From Albidovulum denitrificans (GTDB taxonomy: Bacteria; Pseudomonadota; Alphaproteobacteria; Rhodobacterales; Rhodobacteraceae), in contig NZ_PVEP01000002.1 of NCBI RefSeq assembly GCF_002973535.1, positions 62,001-126,000 on the forward strand: a stretch of 64,000 nucleotides of DNA, read 5' to 3'. The translations under genes were made by a program, and so were the position numbers. Within the stretch, counting starts at the first letter, position 1. Each line of letters opens with the position of its first letter. Under the pieces are notes generated by a model, which had not been told where the DNA came from, made no database searches, and was given only the letters and a program-made list of their open reading frames with translations. Positions 1 to 18,018 of this stretch are shown here, piece by piece.

Positions 1-922
1 TCTGCGCGTCCTTGAGGCGGCGGGCGATGGTGGCGCGCAGCCGCGTCATCTTCACCCGCTCTTCCCGCGCCGCATCCTCGGCCGGGACAGGTGCGCGGGG
101 GGCAGAGGCCGGGGCGGGCGCGGCCGAAGCCACGGGCGCGGCGGCGGGGGCAGGGGCGGCCGACGCCTTGGCAACGTCTTCCTTCATCACCCGTCCGTCG
201 CGGCCAGAGCCTGTGACCTGATCGGAGGACAGGCCCTTTTCCGCCATCGCCTTCTTGGCCGAAGGCGCGTCTTCCACATCCTTGCGTTCGGTCAGCGTTT
301 CGGGTCCGGCGCCGGGGGAATCGACGGCCTCCGCCCTGGCCGCTGCGGACGGGGCGGCGCCCGTGGCGCCTTCGGTCACGACGGCAAGGCGGGCCTTGGC
401 ATCGACCGTGCTGCCCTCGGGCGCGACGATCTCGGCCAGCACGCCGGCGACGGGCGAGGGGACCTCGACCGAGACCTTGTCGGTCTCAAGCTCACACAGC
501 ATCTCGTCCACGGCGACGGCGTCGCCCGGCTTCTTGAACCAGGTGGAGACGGTCGCCTCGGTCACGCTTTCGCCCAGCGTCGGGACCATCACGTCGATAT
601 TCTTGCCAGCCATCTTGCCCTCATCGGCTTGCGGCGCGGAAACGGCGCCTTTCTTGGGGGTTACATCTTCGGAACCGGATTTCCCGGCCTCGGTAATCTG
701 CGCGAGCAGCGCGTTCACGCCGACGGTCGTGCCTTCGGCGGCGACGATCTCGGCCAGCTTTCCGGCGACGGGAGAGGGGACCTCGACCGTCACCTTGTCG
801 GTCTCAAGCTCGCACAGCATTTCATCCACTGCGACGGTGTCGCCCGGTTTCTTGAACCAGGTGGCGACCGTCGCCTCGGTCACGCTTTCGCCCAGCGTGG
901 GGACGCGAACCTCGACCGCCAT
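1..922 (-). CDS. sucB: 2-oxoglutarate dehydrogenase E2 (dihydrolipoyl succinyltransferase), 3' end outside window
   Basis: E2 core of the 2-oxoglutarate dehydrogenase complex; it moves succinyl groups from E1 to CoA. About 307 N-terminal residues are visible. There are two tandem lipoyl domains, near residues 1-77 and 107-183, each with an ETDKV lipoylation motif (Lys43 and Lys149). A peripheral-subunit-binding domain lies near residues 217-246 (AKKAMAEKGL...GRDGRV), followed by an Ala/Pro linker. The catalytic domain is just starting (VKMTRLRATIARRL) at the window edge. The ATG overlaps the sucA stop by one base (TGATG), so translation is probably coupled. The two lipoyl segments are nearly identical at the DNA level with a 318-nt period. 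Two lipoyl domains are, as I recall, usual for Rhodobacterales SucB. Confidence 0.96.
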   Translation of the reverse strand, partial: MAVEVRVPTLGESVTEATVATWFKKPGDTVAVDEMLCELETDKVTVEVPSPVAGKLAEIVAAEGTTVGVNALLAQITEAGKSGSEDVTPKKGAVSAPQADEGKMAGKNIDVMVPTLGESVTEATVSTWFKKPGDAVAVDEMLCELETDKVSVEVPSPVAGVLAEIVAPEGSTVDAKARLAVVTEGATGAAPSAAARAEAVDSPGAGPETLTERKDVEDAPSAKKAMAEKGLSSDQVTGSGRDGRVMKEDVAKASAAPAPAAAPVASAAPAPASAPRAPVPAEDAAREERVKMTRLRATIARRLKDAQ

Positions 923-3888
923 CAGGCACCTCCCGCGACGCCGAGCGCGTCGGCGACAAGCGCCTCCTGCTCGGCCTTGTGGCGGCTGGCGAGGCCCGTC
1001 GCGGGCGACGCCGTGGCGGACCGTCCGGCATAGACCGGGCGCTGGGCCTTGGCCCCGATCCGGGTCAGGACCCATTCGAGGTTGGGTTCGACAAAGAACC
1101 AGGCCCCCTGGTTCTTCGGCTCTTCCTGGCACCAGATCACCTCGGCGCCCTTGAAGCGGTCCAGCTCCTTCACCAGCGACTGCGCCGGGAAGGGGTAGAA
1201 CTGTTCAAGCCGCAGGAGGTAGACATCGGTCAGCCCGCGCTTGTCGCGTTCGGCCAGAAGGTCGAAATAGACCTTGCCGGAACAGATCACGACCCGCTTG
1301 ATCTTCTTGTCCGCGACCAGCTTCGTGTCCGAATGCCCCTTCTGCGCGTCGTCCCAGAGGACGCGGTGGAAGGTCGACCCGGTGGTGAAATCCTCGGCAT
1401 CCGAAACCGCGAGCGGGTGGCGCAGAAGCGATTTCGGCGTCATCAGCATAAGGGGCTTGCGGAAGCTGCGATGGATCTGGCGGCGCAGGATGTGGAAGTA
1501 GTTCGCGGGGGTGGAGCAGTTGGCGACGATCCAGTTGTCCTGGGCGCAAAGTTGCAGCCAGCGTTCCAGCCGGGCAGAGGAGTGCTCCGGCCCTTGCCCC
1601 TCGAACCCGTGCGGCATCAGGCAGACGAGGCCCGACATGCGCAGCCATTTGCTTTCGCCCGAGGAGATGAACTGGTCGAACATGATCTGCGCGCCGTTGG
1701 CGAAGTCGCCGAACTGCGCCTCCCACATGGTCAGCGCGTTGGGTTCGGCCAGCGAATAGCCGTATTCGAAGCCCAGCACCGCGTATTCGGAAAGCATCGA
1801 GTCGATGACCTCATACCGCGCCTGACCCGCCTTGATGTGGTTCAGCGGATAATGCCGTTCCTCGGTCGTCTGGTCGACGAAGGCGGAGTGACGCTGGCTG
1901 AATGTGCCGCGCGTGCAGTCCTGGCCGGACAGGCGCACCGGATAGCCCTCGGTCAGGAGCGAGCCGAAGGCCAGCGCCTCGGCCGTGGCCCAGTCGAACC
2001 CGGTGCCGGATTTGAACATCGCCGACTTGGCGTCCAGAAGCCGGGTCACGGTCTTGTGGATGTCGAACCCGTCGGGGACGCGGGTCAGCGCGGTCCCGAT
2101 TTCGGCCATCAGCTTCTTGGTGATCGCGGTCTTGCCGGGCGAATATTCCTCCCCCTCGCGGTTGAGGTGTGACCAGCGCCCGTCAAGCCAGTCGGCCTTG
2201 TTCGGCTTGTAGCTTTTGCCGGTCTCGAATTCCTCGTTCAGATGCGCCTGGAAGGCGGCCTTCATGTCCTCGATCTCACCTTCCGGGATCAGGCCGTCCT
2301 TGACCAGACGCTCGGTATAAAGCTGAAGCGTGGTCTTGTGGGTCTTGATCGTCTTGTACATCGCCGGGTTGGTGAACATCGGCTCATCGCCTTCGTTGTG
2401 ACCGAAGCGGCGATAGCAGAAGATGTCGATGACGGCGTCCTTGCCGAACATCTGCCGATACTCGGTCGCGACCTTGGCGGCGTGGACGACGGCCTCCGGG
2501 TCGTCGCCGTTGACGTGGAAGATCGGCGCCTCGACCATCAGCGCGATGTCGGTCGGGTAGGGCGAGGAGCGGCTGAAATGCGGCGCGGTGGTGAAACCGA
2601 TCTGGTTGTTCACGACGATATGGATCGTGCCGCCGGTGCGGTGGCCGCGCAGGCCCGAGAGGCCAAAGCATTCGGCCACGACACCCTGACCGGCAAAGGC
2701 CGCGTCGCCGTGCAGCAGGATCGGCAGCACCGCGCGGCGCTCTGACTGGTCCGAGAGCTGGTCCTGCTTGGCGCGCACCTTGCCAAGGACGACCGGATCG
2801 ACCGCCTCAAGATGCGAGGGGTTGGCGGTCAATGACAGGTGAACGGTGTTGCCGTCGAAGGTCCGGTCGGACGACGCGCCGAGGTGGTATTTCACGTCGC
2901 CGGAACCATCGACATCCTCGGGCTTGAAGCTGCCGCCCTGGAATTCGTTGAAGATGGCGCGGTAGGGCTTCATCAGCACATTGGCCAGAACCGACAGACG
3001 GCCCCGGTGCGGCATGCCGACGACGATCTCCTTGACGCCAAGATTGCCGCCGCGCTTGACGATCTGTTCCATCGCCGGGATCAGCGCCTCGCCCCCGTCA
3101 AGGCCAAAGCGCTTGGTCCCCATGTACTTGACATGCAGGAACTTTTCGAAGCCCTCCGCCTCGACCAGCTTGTTCAGGATCGCCTTGCGGCCCTCGCGGG
3201 TGAACTGGATTTCCTTGCCGAAACCTTCGATCCGCTCCTTCAGCCACGCGGCCTGGGCCGGGTCGGAGATATGCATGTATTGCAGCGCGAAGGTGCCGCA
3301 ATAGGTGCGCTTCACGATCTCCATGATCTGCCGCATCGACGCGATTTCAAGGCCAAGCACGTTGTCGATGAAGATCGGCCGGTCCATGTCGGCCTCGGTG
3401 AAGCCGTAGGATTTCGGGTCAAGCTCAGGGTGCGGCGTCGTCTCACGCAGGCCGAGCGGGTCGAGATCGGCGATCAGGTGGCCCCGGATCCGGTAGGCGC
3501 GGATGATCATCAGCGCGCGGATACTGTCGAGAACGGCGCGCTTGACCTGATCATCGCTGACCGCGACGCCCTTTTCGGCGGCCTTGGCGCGGATCTTGTC
3601 GCCCGCGGCCTTGCCTTCGGCCACCTGCGGCCATTCGCCCGTCAGCGCCCCGGTCAGGTCGTCGGCGGGCACCGGCGGCCAGTCCGGCCGCTCCCACGAG
3701 GCGCCGCGCGCTTCCTTGCGCACATCGGTTTCGCTGTCGCCGAGCGAGCGGAAGAACGCGGCCCAGCTTTCATCGACCGCCGAAGGGTCGGCCGCGAAGC
3801 GGGCGTAAAGCTGTTCGACATATTCCGCGTTATGCCCTTGCAGGAACGAGGAAGCGTGGAACTGGTCGTTGGGGGACTGGTCGGTCAT
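922..3888 (-). CDS. sucA: 2-oxoglutarate dehydrogenase E1 component
   Basis: Thiamine-diphosphate-dependent E1; decarboxylates 2-oxoglutarate and transfers the succinyl group to the E2 lipoyl arm. At 988 aa it is a little longer than the roughly 930-residue E. coli enzyme. The N-terminal E2-docking helix motif (SSFLQGHNAEYVEQLY) is present. Conserved blocks include VGMPHRGRLSVLANV near residue 293, YHLGASSDR near 335, HGDAAFAGQGVVAE near 395 (ThDP region) and RRFGHNEGDEP near 495. It follows the sulfotransferase-like gene by 55 nt and is overlapped by sucB. Expression is expected from the suc promoter upstream of sucC, with possible modulation by the hairpin at 4691-4718. Confidence 0.97.
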   Translation of the reverse strand: MTDQSPNDQFHASSFLQGHNAEYVEQLYARFAADPSAVDESWAAFFRSLGDSETDVRKEARGASWERPDWPPVPADDLTGALTGEWPQVAEGKAAGDKIRAKAAEKGVAVSDDQVKRAVLDSIRALMIIRAYRIRGHLIADLDPLGLRETTPHPELDPKSYGFTEADMDRPIFIDNVLGLEIASMRQIMEIVKRTYCGTFALQYMHISDPAQAAWLKERIEGFGKEIQFTREGRKAILNKLVEAEGFEKFLHVKYMGTKRFGLDGGEALIPAMEQIVKRGGNLGVKEIVVGMPHRGRLSVLANVLMKPYRAIFNEFQGGSFKPEDVDGSGDVKYHLGASSDRTFDGNTVHLSLTANPSHLEAVDPVVLGKVRAKQDQLSDQSERRAVLPILLHGDAAFAGQGVVAECFGLSGLRGHRTGGTIHIVVNNQIGFTTAPHFSRSSPYPTDIALMVEAPIFHVNGDDPEAVVHAAKVATEYRQMFGKDAVIDIFCYRRFGHNEGDEPMFTNPAMYKTIKTHKTTLQLYTERLVKDGLIPEGEIEDMKAAFQAHLNEEFETGKSYKPNKADWLDGRWSHLNREGEEYSPGKTAITKKLMAEIGTALTRVPDGFDIHKTVTRLLDAKSAMFKSGTGFDWATAEALAFGSLLTEGYPVRLSGQDCTRGTFSQRHSAFVDQTTEERHYPLNHIKAGQARYEVIDSMLSEYAVLGFEYGYSLAEPNALTMWEAQFGDFANGAQIMFDQFISSGESKWLRMSGLVCLMPHGFEGQGPEHSSARLERWLQLCAQDNWIVANCSTPANYFHILRRQIHRSFRKPLMLMTPKSLLRHPLAVSDAEDFTTGSTFHRVLWDDAQKGHSDTKLVADKKIKRVVICSGKVYFDLLAERDKRGLTDVYLLRLEQFYPFPAQSLVKELDRFKGAEVIWCQEEPKNQGAWFFVEPNLEWVLTRIGAKAQRPVYAGRSATASPATGLASRHKAEQEALVADALGVAGGA

Positions 3889-3943: not shown

Positions 3944-4663
3944 TCATCCCCGCCTCCCGGTCAGCGCGCCGACAAGGCCCTTGAGGCCCGCGGGTTTCGC
4001 GGCGGGGGCCTTGGATTTCGGGATCTGGTCGATGGCATAGCCGAAGCGGGCGAAATCCTCGGCATAGGTCTCGGCCACCCGCGCCAGCGTCTCGGCCGAG
4101 GGCGTCATGCGCGGGTCGTCCTTCGACATCGCCTTCTTGCGCACATTCTCCGCCGCGATCTCACGCGGGCCGTCCTTGTTGCCCGCCAGCCGGTCAAGAT
4201 GCGCGACAACGGGGGCAAGCCCGTCCTCCATGCGGAAGGCGGCCGCGTCCGCAGGCACAAGGTCGGCCATCGGGCGCAGGTGGTTGTCGTAAAGGAACGG
4301 CTCCGCCTCGCGCCGTTTCAGCCAGTCGTCGAACCATTCGTCGATGGACCAGAGCGGCGCCACGGTCTTTTCGACCTCCACCTGAAACTGGAAGGCTGAG
4401 GTGAGCCGCTTCAGCGGATGGCGCACGACGGCGAAGGAACTGGCGATCCAGCCTTCGGGGATCAGCTTGTGAAACGCGTCAAGCGGCAGGTGCTGCGGCG
4501 AGGATTTGGTCCAGCGCGACGGCTCGGGATCGCTGAGGAAGCGGCTGTTGACGAAGGCGAGCGCGCCGAAGCGCTTCTCAAGATAATGCTCCACAGATGT
4601 GCCGGCGCATTTCGGCACATGGGCGTAATAGTGCAACCTGTCACCGATACGGAAAATGGGCAT
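3944..4663 (-). CDS. sulfotransferase-family (Sulfotransfer_2-like) protein inside the suc operon
   Basis: 239-aa soluble protein resembling PAPS-dependent carbohydrate sulfotransferases. A 5'-phosphosulfate-binding loop, HVPKCAGTS, is at residues 15-23. A 3'-phosphate-binding motif, VVRHPLKRLTSAF, spans residues 79-91 with Arg81 and Ser89. The basic C-terminal tail (KSKAPAAKPAGLKG...TGRRG) is low complexity. The gene lies between sucD and sucA in the same orientation, so it is cotranscribed with TCA-cycle genes although nothing links it to that pathway. The acceptor is unknown; a surface polysaccharide or lipid is the family's usual target. The family call rests on motif recognition; activity is inferred. 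Confidence 0.75.
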   Translation of the reverse strand: MPIFRIGDRLHYYAHVPKCAGTSVEHYLEKRFGALAFVNSRFLSDPEPSRWTKSSPQHLPLDAFHKLIPEGWIASSFAVVRHPLKRLTSAFQFQVEVEKTVAPLWSIDEWFDDWLKRREAEPFLYDNHLRPMADLVPADAAAFRMEDGLAPVVAHLDRLAGNKDGPREIAAENVRKKAMSKDDPRMTPSAETLARVAETYAEDFARFGYAIDQIPKSKAPAAKPAGLKGLVGALTGRRG

Positions 4664-4726: not shown

Positions 4727-5611
4727 TTACCCCTTGATCGCCTTCATCACCGCCTCGCCCAGCGTGGCGGGGCTGTCGGCGACGACGATCCCGGCGGCTT
4801 TCATCGCCTCAATCTTGCTCTCCGCGTCGCCCTTGCCGCCCGCGACGATGGCCCCGGCATGGCCCATCCGGCGGCCCTTCGGCGCGGTGCGACCGGCGAT
4901 AAAGCCCGCGACCGGCTTCTTGCGGCCGCGCTTCGCCTCATCGGCCAGGAACTGCGCCGCCTCTTCCTCGGCCGAACCGCCGATCTCGCCGATCATGATG
5001 ATCGACTGCGTTTCGTCATCGGCCAGGAACATCTCCAGCACGTCGATATGTTCCATCCCCTTGATCGGGTCGCCGCCGATGCCGACGGCCGAGGACTGGC
5101 CCAGACCCACGTCCGAGGTCTGCTTCACCGCCTCATAGGTCAGCGTGCCGGAGCGGCTGACGACGCCGACCGAGCCGCGCTTGAAGATATTGCCGGGCAT
5201 GATGCCGATCTTGCATTCGTCCGGCGTCATGATGCCGGGGCAGTTCGGGCCGATGAGTTTGGATTTCGACCCGGAAAGCGCCCGCTTGACGCGCATCATG
5301 TCAAGAACCGGGATGCCTTCGGTGATGGCCACGATCAGCGGGATTTCGGCGTCGATCGCCTCAAGGATGCTGTCGGCGGCGAAGGGGGGCGGAACGTAGA
5401 TCACGCTGGCATTTGCGCCGGTCCGCTCCACCGCCTCATGGACGGAATTGAAGACCGGCAGCCCGATATGTTCGGTCCCGCCTTTGCCGGGAGTCACACC
5501 ACCGACCATCTTGGTGCCATAGGCGATGGCCTGTTCGGTGTGGAAGGTGCCTTGCGAGCCGGTGAGGCCCTGGCAGATGACTTTAGTGTTCTTGTCGATA
5601 AGGACGGACAT
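4727..5611 (-). CDS. sucD: succinate-CoA ligase (ADP-forming) alpha subunit
   Basis: Makes succinate and ATP from succinyl-CoA together with SucC. 294 aa, the normal length. An N-terminal CoA-binding Rossmann domain ([18 protein letters not shown]) is followed by GPNCPGI near residue 121, GIGGDP near 178 and the phospho-histidine loop [10 protein letters not shown] with His251. Its ATG lies 3 nt after the stop of the 55-aa small gene; the run AAGGGAA at the end of that gene serves as ribosome-binding site. Confidence 0.97.
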
Positions 5612-5784: not shown

Positions 5785-6978
5785 CTACCCCTTCACCGCC
5801 TTCACGATTTTCTGCGCGGCGTCGCTCAGGTCGTCGGCGGCGATGACGTTCAGGCCGGAGGTGTTGATGATCTCCTTGCCCTTCTCGACATTCGTCCCCT
5901 CAAGCCGGACGACCAGCGGCACTTTCAGGCCCACTTCCTTGACCGCGGCCACCACGCCCTCGGCGATGATGTCGCAGCGCATGATGCCGCCGAAGATGTT
6001 GACGAGGATGCCCTTCACGTTGGGGTCCGAGGTGATGATCTTGAAGGCCTCGGTCACCTTCTCCTTCGTGGCGCCGCCGCCGACGTCGAGGAAGTTGGCC
6101 GGTTCCGCGCCGTAAAGCTTGATGATGTCCATCGTCGCCATCGCGAGGCCCGCGCCGTTGACCATGCAGCCGATCTCGCCATCCAGCGCGATGTAGTTCA
6201 GGTCGAACTTGGAGGCGGCAAGCTCCTTCGGGTCCTCTTCCGTCTCATCGCGCAGCGCGGCAATGTCGGGGTGGCGGTAGATCGCGTTGCCGTCGAAACC
6301 CATCTTGGCGTCGAGGCATTTCAGGTCGCCCGCCGGCGTCACGATCAGCGGGTTGATCTCAAGCATCTCCATGTCTTTTTCGAGGAAAAGCTTGTAGAGT
6401 GTGCGGATCAGGCCCACGCATTGCTTGACCTGCGCGCCCTGAAGGCCAAGCGCGAAGGCCACGCGGCGGCCGTGGAAATCGGAAAGACCCGAGGCCGGAT
6501 CGACGGAGAAGGTCAGGATCTTCTCGGGCGTCTTGGCGGCCACTTCCTCGATATCCATCCCGCCTTCGGTCGAGCAGACGAAGGCCACGCGGCTGGTCTG
6601 GCGATCGACCAGAAGGGCGAGGTAAAGCTCACGCGCGATGTCGCTGCCATCCTCGATATAGATCCGGTTGACCTGCTTGCCGGGGGCGCCTGTCTGATGG
6701 GTGATCAGGGTGCGGCCCAGCATCTGCTTGGCCAGCTGCGCGGCCTCTTCCACCGACTTGGCAAGGCGAACACCGCCCTTTTCACCGGCCTCGGGTTCCT
6801 TGAAGTGGCCCTTGCCGCGCCCGCCGGCGTGGATCTGCGCCTTCACGACCCAGAGCGGCCCGTCAAGCTCACCGGCCGCCGTCTTGGCCTCTTCCGCGCG
6901 CAACACGGGCCGGCCATCGGAAACCGGCGCGCCATATTGGCGCAGGAGAGCCTTGGCCTGGTATTCGTGGATGTTCAT
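5785..6978 (-). CDS. sucC: succinate-CoA ligase (ADP-forming) beta subunit
   Basis: Nucleotide-binding subunit of succinyl-CoA synthetase; 397 aa, family-typical. It starts with the hallmark [16 protein letters not shown], followed by an ATP-grasp fold ([17 protein letters not shown] near residues 43-59; LEINPLIV near 200) and the C-terminal ligase domain ([13 protein letters not shown] near 290; [10 protein letters not shown] near 320). First gene of the sucC-small ORF-sucD-sulfotransferase-sucA-sucB unit. A twin GTGATCAC module lies 109-138 nt upstream of the start. Confidence 0.97.
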
Positions 6979-7086
6979 CGCCTCAGTCCCTGTCCATTAG
7001 GTTCGCCCCGGTGATGACACATAGGGGCGCAGGCATGAACGAATAATTACGTGAGGCGGGAAAGCGGCGCGGAAAACCCGCTTTTT

Positions 7087-7116
7087 GTGATCACGCGATT
7101 TGAGGGTGTGATCACA
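7087..7116 (-). promoter_or_regulatory. twin GTGATCAC operator upstream of the suc operon
   Basis: Two GTGATCAC palindromes at 7087-7094 and 7108-7115 (the upstream copy extended to TGTGATCACA at 7107-7116), 21 bp apart. Read in the sucC direction the module is followed by AAAAAGCGGGTTTTCCGC, matching the base order after the sdhC module (13572-13602). Binding protein not identified; a dimeric TCA-cycle regulator is inferred. Confidence 0.75.
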
Positions 7117-7191: not shown

Positions 7192-8241
7192 ATGCGAAAG
7201 GGACGGCCTGTGGTTTTGCCGCGTTGGGGGATCGTGACGACGGCGGATGCGCCGGTGTCCCTGCTGATCGCCCATGCCGCCCATCACCTCGTCGCTGGGG
7301 CGGGGGAGGTTCACCTTTATCTCGACAACGCCCCGGAGGCGGCAGAGGATCTGGCCCCGTTGCGGTGCCTGCCCGGCGTCCGCGTGACCGTCGCCGACCG
7401 GGCCTGGTGGCGCGGCCAGGGGCGGCGGCGGCCGCGCCTGCACCAGGTGCGCCAGACCCACAACGCCACCGCCGCGCTGGCCGCGACCGGGATGGACTAC
7501 CTCATCCACCTCGATATCGACGAATTCCTCTGGCAGTGGGAACCGCTGGCCGAGGAACTGTCGCTGCTGCCCGAGGGGCATTTCCTGAAGATCGGTAATA
7601 TCGAGCGGGTCCATGCCGCGACGGACCCCGGCACAGACATCTTTTCCCCGCTCTTCCGCCTGCCCGAAGCCCTTGTCTCGGGGCGGGAGGCGGCGGAGGA
7701 GGATCTGCGGAACGGCGGCCTGACCCGGCAGGGCCTGACCGGGCATTCAAGCGGCAAGGCCGCAAGCCCGGCGGGCCTTGGCTATACCGCCGGTATCCAC
7801 CGCCCGCGTCTTTCGGCCCGCCGTGGTGGCCTTTATCCGCGCCACCGCTTGTCCGAAAGCGCGACGATCCTGCATTTCGACGGCGTCACGCCGCGCGACT
7901 GGCTGCACAAGCTTTTGCGCAAGGGCGAGGCGCTTGAGCGTGACCCGCAAAGCCCTGCCGCAGAGGAACGCGCGCGACAGGTGGCGGCGCTGATGGCCTG
8001 CGGCCCCGATCTGGCGGCGGCGCTTGCGCTTTACGACCGGCTGAAACGGCTCGACCCGGCGCGCGAGGCGACATGGCGCGGCGAGGGCCGGGTGATCGAG
8101 GTTCCCTTCGACCCCGCCGGGGCCATTGCTGAACTGCTGCCGGGCCATGTCGCCGACTTGAGCCGCGATGGCTATGACCGCTGGCTGGCATCGACGAAGG
8201 GCGATGTGTTTGCCCGGTTCGGGATGCCTGTCGGCGGGTAG
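7192..8241 (+). CDS. glycosyltransferase family 2-like protein (DxD, PF13704 type)
   Basis: 349-aa cytosolic glycosyltransferase-like protein of a type common in Rhodobacteraceae. The N-terminal segment (VVLPRWGIVTTADAPVSLL) begins a GT-A fold, and a DxD nucleotide-sugar/metal motif, HLDIDEFLW, is seen at residues 107-114 (Asp108, Asp110). The middle part (residues 170-240) is rich in Arg/Gly/His, with ILHFDGVTPRDWLHKLLRKGE near residue 225 as in related proteins. The gene stands alone, divergent from the suc operon, whose control module lies about 75 bp before its ATG. The target is unknown. The ATG at 7192 is chosen because homology-like sequence starts directly after it. Confidence 0.75.
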   Translation: MRKGRPVVLPRWGIVTTADAPVSLLIAHAAHHLVAGAGEVHLYLDNAPEAAEDLAPLRCLPGVRVTVADRAWWRGQGRRRPRLHQVRQTHNATAALAATGMDYLIHLDIDEFLWQWEPLAEELSLLPEGHFLKIGNIERVHAATDPGTDIFSPLFRLPEALVSGREAAEEDLRNGGLTRQGLTGHSSGKAASPAGLGYTAGIHRPRLSARRGGLYPRHRLSESATILHFDGVTPRDWLHKLLRKGEALERDPQSPAAEERARQVAALMACGPDLAAALALYDRLKRLDPAREATWRGEGRVIEVPFDPAGAIAELLPGHVADLSRDGYDRWLASTKGDVFARFGMPVGG

Positions 8242-13571: not shown

Positions 13572-13602
13572 TGTGATCACGCCTTGAAAAATCGTGATCA
13601 CA
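13572..13602 (+). promoter_or_regulatory. twin GTGATCAC operator upstream of sdhCDAB
   Basis: GTGATCAC at 13573-13580 (extended TGTGATCAC) and 13594-13601 (extended GTGATCACAAA), again 21 bp apart. The sequence that follows (CACCAGGTTTTTCGC) parallels the suc module in the same orientation. It ends about 150 nt before the sdhC ATG. The shared arrangement implies one regulator for sdh and suc; the protein is not identified here. Confidence 0.75.
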
Positions 13603-13752
13603 AACACCAGGTTTTTCGCTAACACGCGCCGAAACGACGAATTTATGCCAATCGCGGCGTGACATGGGCGTGATTTGGGTCCATGAAGAGGGCGACGGCG
13701 CCCCTGTGAGCCACCCGCTCGCCGGGGGCGCGGAAGCTTCAAGGGGAGAGAC

Positions 13753-14142
13753 ATGGCCGATGTGAACCGGGGCAAGCGCCCGCTATCGCCCTTTATGATC
13801 GGGCCTTACTACCGCCCGCAGCTGACCTCGATCACCTCGATCCTGACCCGGATTACCGGAAACGCCCTGATCGTTGCGGCGCTGCTGATCGTCTGGTGGC
13901 TGCTCGCCGCCGCGACCAGCGCCGAATATTTCGCGGTCGCCGACGGTGTCCTGCGCAGCTGGTTCGGCAAGCTTGTGCTGTTCGGATCGATCTGGGCCGT
14001 CTGGTACCACTTCCTCGCCGGGCTGCGGCACCTTTACTACGACAGCGGCCGCGGCCTTGATATTCCCACCGCCGAAAAGCTCGGCTGGGGCGTCATCTTC
14101 GGGTCGGTCATCCTGACCCTGTTCACCGTTACCATTCTCTGA
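13753..14142 (+). CDS. sdhC: succinate dehydrogenase cytochrome b556 subunit
   Basis: Membrane anchor of complex II; 129 aa with three transmembrane helices. It has RPLSPFMIGPYYRPQLTSITSI at residues 9-30 (quinone-site Ser region), Arg33, and the haem motif WYHFLAGLRHLYYD at residues 84-97, with His86 and His93. The GGGGAG ribosome-binding site is close to ATG. First gene of the sdh operon. Confidence 0.96.
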   Translation: MADVNRGKRPLSPFMIGPYYRPQLTSITSILTRITGNALIVAALLIVWWLLAAATSAEYFAVADGVLRSWFGKLVLFGSIWAVWYHFLAGLRHLYYDSGRGLDIPTAEKLGWGVIFGSVILTLFTVTIL

Positions 14143-14154
14143 AAGGGCCTCGCG

Positions 14155-14526
14155 ATGCGTTACCTGACCGACCGCAAGCGCGCCGACGGCCTTGGCTCCG
14201 CCAAAAGCGGGACCGAGCATTTCTGGCACATGCAGGTCAGCGCCGTGGCGCTGGCGATCCTGATCCCGCTCTTCATCCTGACCTTCGGCCGCATCCTTGG
14301 CGCGCCCTATGAGGATGTCGTGGCCTATTACAGCCGTCCCTTCCCGGCGATCGTGGCCGGGCTGACGCTGATCGTGGGCATGACCCATTTCAAGAACGGC
14401 GCCCAGGTGATGATCGAGGACTATGTCCACGGGTTCGCCCGCAAGGCCCTGGTCGTCGGCACGGTCTGCCTGTCCTATGCCGTGATGGCAACCGGACTTT
14501 ACGCCCTGATCCGGCTCGCGCTTTAA
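14155..14526 (+). CDS. sdhD: succinate dehydrogenase membrane anchor subunit
   Basis: 123 aa with three transmembrane helices. The N-terminal motif GLGSAKSGTEHFWHMQVSA and the haem/quinone block GMTHFKNGAQVMIEDYVHG (His78) are typical of alphaproteobacterial SdhD. Twelve nucleotides after sdhC and 12 before sdhA, so cotranscribed. Confidence 0.95.
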   Translation: MRYLTDRKRADGLGSAKSGTEHFWHMQVSAVALAILIPLFILTFGRILGAPYEDVVAYYSRPFPAIVAGLTLIVGMTHFKNGAQVMIEDYVHGFARKALVVGTVCLSYAVMATGLYALIRLAL

Positions 14527-14538
14527 GGAACTCTCTCC

Positions 14539-16341
14539 ATGACCGCTTATCCTTACGAAGTACACGAATACGATGTCGTCGTGGTGGGCGCGGGCGGATC
14601 GGGCCTGCGCGCGACGCTTGGCATGGCCGAGCAGGGGCTGAAGACGGCCTGCGTGACCAAGGTCTTCCCGACCCGCTCGCACACCGTCGCGGCGCAGGGC
14701 GGCATCGCGGCGTCACTGTCGAACATGGGGCCGGACCACTGGCAGTGGCACATGTATGACACGGTCAAGGGCTCGGACTGGCTGGGCGACACCGACGCGA
14801 TGGAATACCTCGCGCGCGAGGCGCCGAAGGCGGTCTATGAGCTGGAACATTACGGCGTGCCGTTTTCGCGCACCGAAGAGGGCAAGATCTATCAGCGCCC
14901 CTTCGGCGGCCATACGACCGAATTCGGCGAAGGCCCCCCGGTGCAGCGCACCTGCGCCGCCGCCGACCGGACCGGCCACGCCATCCTGCACACGCTTTAC
15001 GGCCAGTCCCTGAAGCAGCAGGCGGAATTCTATATCGAATACTTCGCCATCGACCTCATCATCACCGACGGCGCCTGCACCGGCGTTGTGGCGTGGAAGC
15101 TTGACGATGGCACGATGCATGTCTTCAACGCCAAGATGGTGGTGCTGGCGACGGGCGGCTATGGGCGCGCCTATTTCTCCGCCACCGGCGCCCATACCTG
15201 CACCGGCGACGGCGGCGGGATGGTCGCGCGCGCGGGCCTGCCGCTTCAGGATATGGAGTTCGTCCAGTTCCACCCGACCGGCATCTACGGCGCGGGCTGC
15301 CTGATTACCGAAGGCGCGCGGGGCGAGGGCGGCTATCTCACCAACTCCGAAGGCGAGCGGTTCATGGAACGCTATGCCCCCACCTACAAGGACCTTGCCA
15401 GCCGCGACGTCGTCAGCCGCTGCATGACGATCGAGATCCGCGAAGGGCGCGGCGTCGGCCCGAACAAGGACCATATCCACCTGCACCTGAACCACCTTCA
15501 GCCGGAAACACTGGCCGAACGGCTTCCCGGCATCTCGGAATCGGCGCGGATCTTCGCCGGTGTCGATGTCACCAAGGAACCGATCCCGGTCCTGCCAACG
15601 GTGCATTACAACATGGGCGGCATCCCGACCAACTATCATGGCGAGGTGCTGAACCCGACCAAGGACAATCCCGACGCCGTCTTCCCCGGCCTCATGGCGG
15701 TGGGTGAGGCGGGCTGCGCCAGCGTTCACGGCGCCAACCGTCTTGGCTCCAACTCGCTGATCGACCTTGTCGTCTTCGGCCGTGCCGCCGCCATCCGCGC
15801 GGGGGAGATCCTTGACCCCAAAGAGCGTAACCAGCCGGTCGACAAGGCGGGCGTCGAGAAGGCGCTGGACCGCTTCGACGGCCTGCGCAACGCCAATGGG
15901 TCCGTCCCCACCGCCGAACTCAGGCTTGAGATGCAGCAGACCATGCAGGCCGATGCCGCCGTCTTCCGCACCGACAAGTCGCTGGCCGAGGGCGTGGAGA
16001 AGATGGAGAAGGTCGCGGGCAAGATCGCCGACCTCAAGGTCACCGACCGCTCGCTGATCTGGAACTCCGACCTGATGGAGACGCTGGAACTGACCAACCT
16101 GATGCCGAACGCGCTGGCCACCATCGTGGCGGCCGAGGCGCGCAAGGAAAGCCGCGGCGCCCACGCGCATGAGGATTACCCCGACCGCGATGACAAGAAC
16201 TGGCGCGTGCATTCGCTGTCCTGGGTCGATGGCAACAAGGTCCGCCTCGGCTCCCGTCCCGTTCACCTCGATCCGTTGACGACCGAGGAGAAGGGCGGCA
16301 TTGATCTCAAGAGGATCGCGCCGAAAAAGAGGGTTTACTGA
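14539..16341 (+). CDS. sdhA: succinate dehydrogenase flavoprotein subunit
   Basis: 600 aa, normal length. Oxidises succinate to fumarate at a covalently bound FAD. FAD-binding [12 protein letters not shown] at residues 14-25; covalent-FAD histidine His48 in [32 protein letters not shown] near residue 247 carries the catalytic Arg/His set; [15 protein letters not shown] near 400. The stop overlaps the start of the following secreted protein by one base (TGATG). Confidence 0.98.
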
Positions 16342-17241: not shown

Positions 17242-18018
17242 ATGGTTCAGTTCTCACTTCCCAAGAATTCGAAGGTCCGGGTCGGCAAGACCTGGCCGAA
17301 GCCCGAGGGGAAGACGATCCGCAAGTTCCAGATTTACCGCTGGGACCCCGACACGGGCGAAAACCCGCGTGTCGATACCTATTTCATCGACATGGACAAG
17401 TGCGGTCCGATGGTTCTGGACGCGCTGATCAAGATCAAGAATGAGATCGACCCGACGTTGACCTTCCGCCGGTCCTGCCGCGAGGGGATCTGCGGCTCCT
17501 GCGCGATGAACATCGACGGGATCAACACGCTGGCCTGTATCTATGGTCTGGATGAGATCAAGGGCGACGTGAAGATCTATCCGCTGCCGCATATGCCGGT
17601 CGTGCGCGACCTGATCCCGGACCTGACGCATTTCTACGCCCAGCACGCCTCGATCATGCCCTGGCTTGAGACGAAGACGAACCGCCCCGAAAAGGAATGG
17701 CGCCAGTCGATCGAGGATCGCAGGAAGCTTGACGGGCTTTATGAATGCGTGATGTGCGCGTCTTGCTCCACCTCCTGCCCGAGCTATTGGTGGAACGGCG
17801 ACCGTTACCTTGGCCCGGCCGCGCTGCTGCACGCCTATCGCTGGATCGTCGACAGCCGCGACGAGGCGACGGGTGAGCGGCTGGATGAGCTTGAGGATCC
17901 GTTCAAGCTTTACCGCTGCCACACGATCATGAACTGCGCCAAGACCTGCCCCAAGGGCCTGAACCCGGCCAAGGCGATTGCCGAGATCAAGAAGATGATG
18001 GTCGAGCGGATCGTATGA
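17242..18018 (+). CDS. sdhB: succinate dehydrogenase iron-sulfur subunit
   Basis: 258 aa, complete. Carries electrons from FAD to quinone through three clusters. [16 protein letters not shown]...LAC near residues 76-97 binds [2Fe-2S]; [12 protein letters not shown] near 171-182 binds [4Fe-4S]; [17 protein letters not shown] near 229-245 binds [3Fe-4S]. Last gene of the operon, followed by a terminator. Confidence 0.97.

Follow-up and report, generated by a model that had tools for sequence, protein, structure and literature searches.

Paired palindromes upstream of the suc and sdh operons form a conserved module in Rhodobacteraceae, with AkgR as the putative regulator

The stretch of DNA analysed here (the window; 64,000 nt, G000:C2:62001-126000) carries genes for succinyl-CoA ligase and 2-oxoglutarate dehydrogenase on one strand and a succinate dehydrogenase operon on the other (Table 1). 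Exact matching placed the palindrome GTGATCAC at four positions in the window, and these copies form two pairs, each with a spacing of 21 bp from start to start, one upstream of sucC and the other upstream of sdhC. The first-pass annotation had described this twin arrangement before the same two genes; the matches were exact at all four places, and the gene calls for sucC and sdhC were confirmed by Pfam. The gap from the end of the pair to the start codon is 108 bp for sucC (minus strand) and 151 bp for sdhC (plus strand). An agreement of both orientation and flanks between the two pairs had also been claimed, of which the part concerning the flanks stands; the sites themselves have no orientation, since each GTGATCAC is a perfect palindrome and only its flanks can have one. 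Amongst the neighbouring genes, a mesaconyl-CoA hydratase gene (PF19315; 12498-13529, plus strand) lies directly upstream of the sdhC pair, and a similar protein was seen by eye in the corresponding place in another genome (G199, locus L232). An ORF of 239 aa between sucA and sucD (3944-4663, minus strand) gave no NCBIfam match.

Table 1. Features of the suc and sdh regions, in window coordinates
Feature	Position	Strand	Basis
Putative operator palindrome GTGATCAC, sucC-near copy	7087..7094	no strand	exact match; conserved before sucC in relatives
Putative operator palindrome GTGATCAC, sucC-far copy	7108..7115	no strand	exact match; conserved before sucC in relatives
Putative operator palindrome GTGATCAC, sdhC-far copy	13573..13580	no strand	exact match; conserved before sdhC in relatives
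Putative operator palindrome GTGATCAC, sdhC-near copy	13594..13601	no strand	exact match; conserved before sdhC in relatives
First two A/T tracts, sucC pair	7073..7086	-	sequence (AAAAA 7082-7086, TTTT 7073-7076)
First two A/T tracts, sdhC pair	13602..13616	+	sequence (AAA 13602-13604, TTTTT 13612-13616)
Predicted sdhC core promoter	13659..13687	+	motif search and scan (-35 GTGACA 13659-13664, 17 bp, weak -10 CATGAA 13682-13687)
sucA/odhA, 2-oxoglutarate dehydrogenase E1	922..3888	-	Pfam OxoGdeHyase_C, E1_dh, Transket_pyr
sucD, succinyl-CoA ligase alpha subunit	4727..5611	-	NCBIfam NF004230, over cut-off
sucC, succinyl-CoA ligase beta subunit	5785..6978	-	Pfam ATP-grasp_2, Ligase_CoA
sdhC, first gene of the succinate dehydrogenase operon	13753..14142	+	Pfam Sdh_cyt
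Probable sdhD	14155..14526	+	ORF, by position between sdhC and sdhA
sdhA, succinate dehydrogenase flavoprotein	14539..16341	+	Pfam FAD_binding_2, Succ_DH_flav_C
sdhB, succinate dehydrogenase iron-sulfur subunit	17242..18018	+	Pfam Fer2_3, 4Fe-4S families

Shuffled versions of the window contained 0.79 matches to GTGATCAC on average, with at least four in 1 of 100 shuffles. In a pattern search of the whole genome (4,107,985 bases), the exact arrangement GTGATCAC-N13-GTGATCAC was found at the sucC and sdhC sites only, and its reversed control at 0 places. The single palindrome matched at 29 places genome-wide and its reversed control at one; this control contains CTAG, a tetranucleotide that bacteria often avoid, and the comparison is therefore not a fair one. 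The 25 copies remaining outside the window pairs were all single, 14 of them inside a coding-like ORF according to a crude codon model, and an inspection by eye of these 25 copies found the AAA flank after none of them. One of these single copies (L220) is followed, 34 bp on, by an ORF of 336 aa.

Searched with up to one mismatch allowed, the 21-bp pair was present in 261 of 295 genomes of the family, a set in which each genus is represented once and the window's own genus twice. Going by the list, two pairs per genome were usual, and the reversed control pair was read in none of the family genome rows. The same search in a class-wide sample found the pair in 31 of 289 genomes; the window's family contributes four of these genomes, of which three carry the pair, and removal of the four left 28 of 285 genomes from other families of the class, 26 of the 28 having a mismatch. 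Exact pairs outside the family were found in two genomes, G440 and G495.

Position-specific conservation was examined in 80 named sucC loci, comprising 31 with SucC 80-89% identical and mostly Rhodobacteraceae names (L045-L075) and 49 with SucC at most 76% identical (L076-L124). The pair was present upstream of sucC in 30 of the 31 closer loci, the sole miss being L053, in which the upstream sequence differs, and in 0 of the 49 more distant ones, a count that includes L106, titled Rhodobacteraceae although its SucC is only 75% identical. Enough sequence upstream of sdhC was available for 21 of the 31 loci, and 19 of these carried the pair, with one intact site retained in each of the two misses (L046 and L057). 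The absence from close relatives that would have spoken against the module was thus not seen. The spacers and flanks of the pairs have diverged between relatives, so the conserved element is the palindromes themselves. Additionally, amongst 64 pair-bearing loci, a script placed 62 pairs before sucC or sdhC, 31 before each. The twin GTGATCAC arrangement is a conserved module of the family, and its retention before both genes strongly supports shared control of suc and sdh.

Chance or a repeat without regulatory function could be invoked for the palindromes, given the 29 single matches in this genome and the roughly one in ten genomes of other families in which a pair with no more than one mismatch turned up. 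Against this stand the restriction of the exact pairs of this genome to suc and sdh and the retention of the pair in orthologous promoters whose spacers and flanks have diverged; such position-specific conservation already contradicts the reading, to which we attach hardly any weight. A second reading makes the sucC pair a control element of the divergent glycosyltransferase gene at 7192 instead of sucC, as the window pair lies only 77 bp before the start of that gene. A relative of the glycosyltransferase gene was found in 4 of the 31 named loci, compared with the pair before sucC in 30, and the sdhC pair exists without such a gene. This target was rejected, its likelihood being negligible.

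Two of the 64 pairs lay elsewhere than before sucC or sdhC (L146, which is the fumC-like case in genome G042, and L150). In G042, a third exact GTGATCAC-N13-GTGATCAC at C16:228293-228321 (about 3994-4022 of L230) marks the 5' end of an ORF whose product has fumarase C domains, and it therefore seems that a TCA gene other than those of suc and sdh can acquire the module. By eye, this pair is followed after about 125 bp by the likely ATG of the ORF.

The named loci, which were not selected for having a pair, also provided an account of the spacing. It was 21 bp in 28 sucC promoters and 17 sdhC promoters, and 20 bp in two of each; a scan that allowed 9-45 bp returned nothing besides these two values. 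The exact 21-bp spacing of the first-pass annotation thus holds for both window pairs but not as an invariant, given the 20-bp pairs of relatives. Palindromes that lie two turns apart and never half a turn off have the geometry required for two proteins to sit on the same side of the helix, and binding of two dimers in this manner would fit a spacing of either 20 or 21 bp.

A further regularity was observed between the pair and the genes when 72 sucC and 51 sdhC promoters, a mixture of the window, named loci, the ten genomes whose pair is spaced at 20 bp and loci selected for bearing a pair, were aligned on the end of the pair. For sucC, A/T content peaked at 0-3, 9-12, 20-22, 30-32 and 40-42 bp past the pair (100, 99, 85, 75 and 89%), and for sdhC at about 0-2, 9-12, 19-21, 29-33 and 40-43 bp (94, 90, 69, 90 and 78%). 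The A-rich stretch followed by a GGTTTT-CGC block, which had been noted from the window, was recovered here as the first two of about five A/T tracts roughly 10 bp apart. Over the 45 bp that follow the pair, the Fourier amplitude at a period of 10-10.5 bp was 0.161 for sucC and 0.140 for sdhC, and the maxima in 2000 controls, in which every sequence was shifted independently, were 0.043 and 0.050, respectively. Phase coherence between sequences was 0.88 for sucC and sdhC alike. The periodicity before sucC was stronger in the 30 named pair-bearing loci than in 14 pair-free genomes of the family (p 0.001) or in 30 outgroup loci (p 1e-8).

A two-block motif search in 20 sdhC promoters returned a -35 element GTGACA and, after 16 bp, a -10 element beginning with TA (TA....), with a log-likelihood of 76 compared with at most 1.8 in shuffled controls. 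This predicted core promoter, GTGACA-N16-TA, is strongly conserved before sdhC in relatives. In the window, the predicted -35 lies 57 bp after the pair; the -10 is weak, and the promoter of this genome may therefore depend more on an activator. When 51 sdhC promoters were scanned without any positional information, the -35 fell 57-60 bp past the pair in 39 of them and at 46-48, 68-70 or 78-80 bp in nine, which corresponds to a shift of one turn towards the pair or of one or two turns away from it. Three promoters did not fit, two having their best match at +11 and +22 and one at +94, below the score cut; in L052, which is among these three, a count by eye places a second GTGACT at +58. The nine positions away from the mode were phased with it (Rayleigh p 0.0002 at both 10.5 and 11.0 bp). 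With the three misfits added, the value at 10.5 bp was 0.13, which is not significant, and that at 11.0 bp was 0.006; one of the nine (L127, +46) has a poor -35, TGGCCA, and dropping it gave p 0.0003 at 10.5 bp. We regard this as good, though not final, evidence that the sdhC pair must face the polymerase. At class I CRP promoters of Escherichia coli, the activator site tolerates shifts relative to the promoter by whole helical turns only. The sdhC pair resembles this arrangement in being a putative upstream activator site with mostly whole-turn shifts, but CRP belongs to an unrelated protein family, uses one operator and usually sits closer to the promoter. For sucC, a search of 41 promoters returned CGTTTA-16-ATGCCA at +43 to +48 in most of them and no core promoter as clean as that of sdhC; the sucC motif fits this genome poorly (+28, posterior 0.57), and promoter phasing is therefore not claimed for sucC.

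AkgR, a GntR-family activator, is reportedly the protein RSP_0981 of Rhodobacter sphaeroides, an assignment attributed to Imam and colleagues in mBio in 2015. The palindrome GTGATCAC has been identified amongst the AkgR sites of R. sphaeroides (PMC6365646, in the portion available), and RSP_0981, a GntR-family regulator, was predicted to control sucCD, sdh and the 2-oxoglutarate dehydrogenase (odh) genes (PMC4344238, in the portion available). The window module agrees with this regulon, as portrayed in those portions, in its palindrome, which lies upstream of the target genes, and in its targets, suc and sdh, with odh reached through the suc operon. The candidate AkgR of this genome, P0002, is encoded outside the window (G000:C2:57476-58144). 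Its gene lies some 11 kb away from sucC, on the opposite end of the suc-odh cluster, and one short ORF from lpd (lpd being assigned by eye). It is a protein of 222 aa with an N-terminal GntR winged helix (PF00392, 59 bits) and a C-terminal FCD domain (PF07729, 55 bits), both over their cut-offs, an architecture that places it in the FadR subfamily of the GntR family; among proteins of known structure, its best match by sequence is McbR (4p9f, E 2.5e-19), a regulator of the GntR family. In 10 of the 31 named loci, the sequence around sucC also covered a relative with 70-77% identity, which may lie farther away in the others. Going by the RSP numbering, RSP_0981 presumably sits on the sdh side, whereas P0002 lies on the lpd side.

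The presence of a candidate akgR gene was compared with that of the pair across the family. A strong akgR match (E below 1e-70) was found in 265 genomes, 252 of them with the 21-bp pair and 13 without, and the other 30 genomes divided into nine with and 21 without (Fisher p 1e-16). Thirty of the 34 genomes lacking a 21-bp pair were searched for sucC. The sucC promoter was readable in 10 of the 13 such genomes with strong akgR, and all 10 had an exact 20-bp pair, which brings the counts with and without a pair to 262 and 3 for strong akgR and to 9 and 21 for the rest. Of 17 pair-free genomes with akgR lacking or weak that were searched, 14 had a readable sucC promoter and none of these carried a pair. 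Among the nine genomes having the pair without a strong akgR match, most assemblies are fragmented or incomplete; this excuse is harder to make for G114 (100% complete, in 320 contigs) and G004 (97% complete, in 1160 contigs). With the cut-off set to 1e-50, G281 combines an akgR-like gene with the absence of a pair. A SucC tree of 39 rows, itself poorly resolved, requires about nine changes of the pair and eight of akgR, with only three independent contrasts on well-supported branches (sign test p 0.25). Before sucC of G157 (L206), a genome with no detected akgR match, GTGATAAC stands where a site would be expected and is followed 21 bp on by GTCATAAA, with T/A flanks; this is perhaps a decayed pair, in a genome that is only 80% complete.

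Co-occurrence with akgR is not specific by itself, because the nearest paralogue, P0003, is also mostly missing from the pair-free genomes, with an ortholog-level match in 1 of the 14 readable ones in which akgR was lacking or weak. That another GntR regulator of the genome occupies the pairs, the GntR gene near suc being a bystander, is one alternative. This genome has 20 GntR-domain matches over the Pfam cut-off, and PS417_07240 of Pseudomonas simiae, a GntR-like regulator of deoxyribonate oxidation, has been proposed to bind the conserved palindrome GTGATCAC at -47 to -40 from its own start codon (PMC6365646, in the portion available). That protein is only 32% identical to AkgR, and the specificity is thus not unique to AkgR; it differs from the present case in its pathway and, in the same portion of PMC6365646, in having a single palindrome described and no pair. 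Several observations argue against such a substitute. P0003 adjoins, by eye, ORFs of polyamine-type transport and aminotransferase functions. Of the 10 genomes whose pair is spaced at 20 bp, 4 had no ortholog-level match to it, so the pair does not require P0003. None of the 26 GntR loci of this genome showed an exact GTGATCAC over a range of about 1.5 kb, and P0003 was not supported as the binder. Additionally, relatives carry the palindrome at the start of the candidate akgR gene itself. We therefore consider a different GntR regulator unlikely.

Of 38 readable loci, 20 had an exact GTGATCAC immediately in front of the akgR start codon (15 of 30 akgR loci of 3.5-3.7 kb and 5 of 8 named loci). 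In these 15 loci it occurs once each, always directly before the akgR start codon, and it was found nowhere else in the 30. The start of P0002 in this genome is without it. Several of the loci lacking the palindrome (amongst L157-L185) have GTGCTTGGC or GTGTTTCCC in the corresponding position, which gives the impression that different promoter sequence has taken the place of the operator. By eye, the akgR-start palindrome lies about one promoter spacer after a TTGAC, and a dimer bound there would cover the -10 or the ribosome-binding region, which led us to propose autorepression.

A regulator of another family, such as the LacI-family protein CceR or NtrC, has also been considered for the pairs, as RSP_1663 (CceR), a regulator of central carbon metabolism, was predicted at mdh and sdh of R. 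sphaeroides and NtrC at sdh (PMC4344238, in the portion available). The CceR motif predicted there, [A/G/T]GTT-N6-8-AAC[A/C/T], is not GTGATCAC, which is the conserved element of the pair, and it is the start of akgR that the palindrome marks. Binding by a protein of another family therefore appears very unlikely. Altogether, the tentative AkgR lead of the first-pass annotation gained support from the published GTGATCAC motif and RSP_0981 targets, from the co-occurrence with the GntR gene and from the palindrome at the akgR start, and each pair most likely represents putative docking sites for AkgR.

As judged from sequence, it is highly probable that the palindromes are operators for AkgR dimers, that twin dimers activate suc-odh and sdh with the assistance of the A/T tracts, and that akgR is autorepressed in many relatives. 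Under this proposal, AkgR, as a regulator of the GntR/FadR type, would use each GTGATCAC as the operator for a single dimer. Upstream of the core promoters of sucC and sdhC, a pair of dimers would occupy the same side of the double helix at a distance of two turns and would jointly activate the sucCD-odh and sdhCDAB operons from there. The A/T tracts spaced at about 10 bp between the pair and the promoter could bend the DNA towards RNA polymerase, or they could provide minor-groove sites for the alpha C-terminal domains of the polymerase. In many relatives, a dimer at the single palindrome of the akgR start would repress akgR itself. Binding of AkgR at these sites, the number of dimers, activation, bending and autorepression are steps that we infer. 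More tentatively, and with the balance leaning somewhat against it, the module may be a composite, helically phased device in which the regulator and the C-terminal domains of the polymerase form a curved complex on one face of the DNA and so activate the lower TCA cycle throughout the family. In such a device, the sdhC promoter would slide relative to the operators in whole turns only, and the A/T tracts would carry the phase from the operators to the promoter.

The regulator, its targets and its motif are already in print, and it is the phased layout that may be new. The twin layout is absent from the available text of PMC6365646, PMC4344238, PMC4419725, PMC7471390 and PMC11323563, the last of which has AkgR only in its reference list as far as that text goes. 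A full-text literature search for the letters of GTGATCAC gave nothing on this system among the matches listed. The twin spacing, the A/T phasing and the akgR-start site do not occur in the accounts of the AkgR regulon in the available portions of PMC6365646 and PMC4344238.

These observations turn a hand-read motif into a defined putative operator for two core TCA operons in most of the sampled genera of a large and ecologically important family. The promoter is compact, and its rules of activation, namely the number of sites, their spacing, helical phase and the A/T tracts, can be tested singly. TCA regulation in uncultured relatives would thereby become predictable from sequence.
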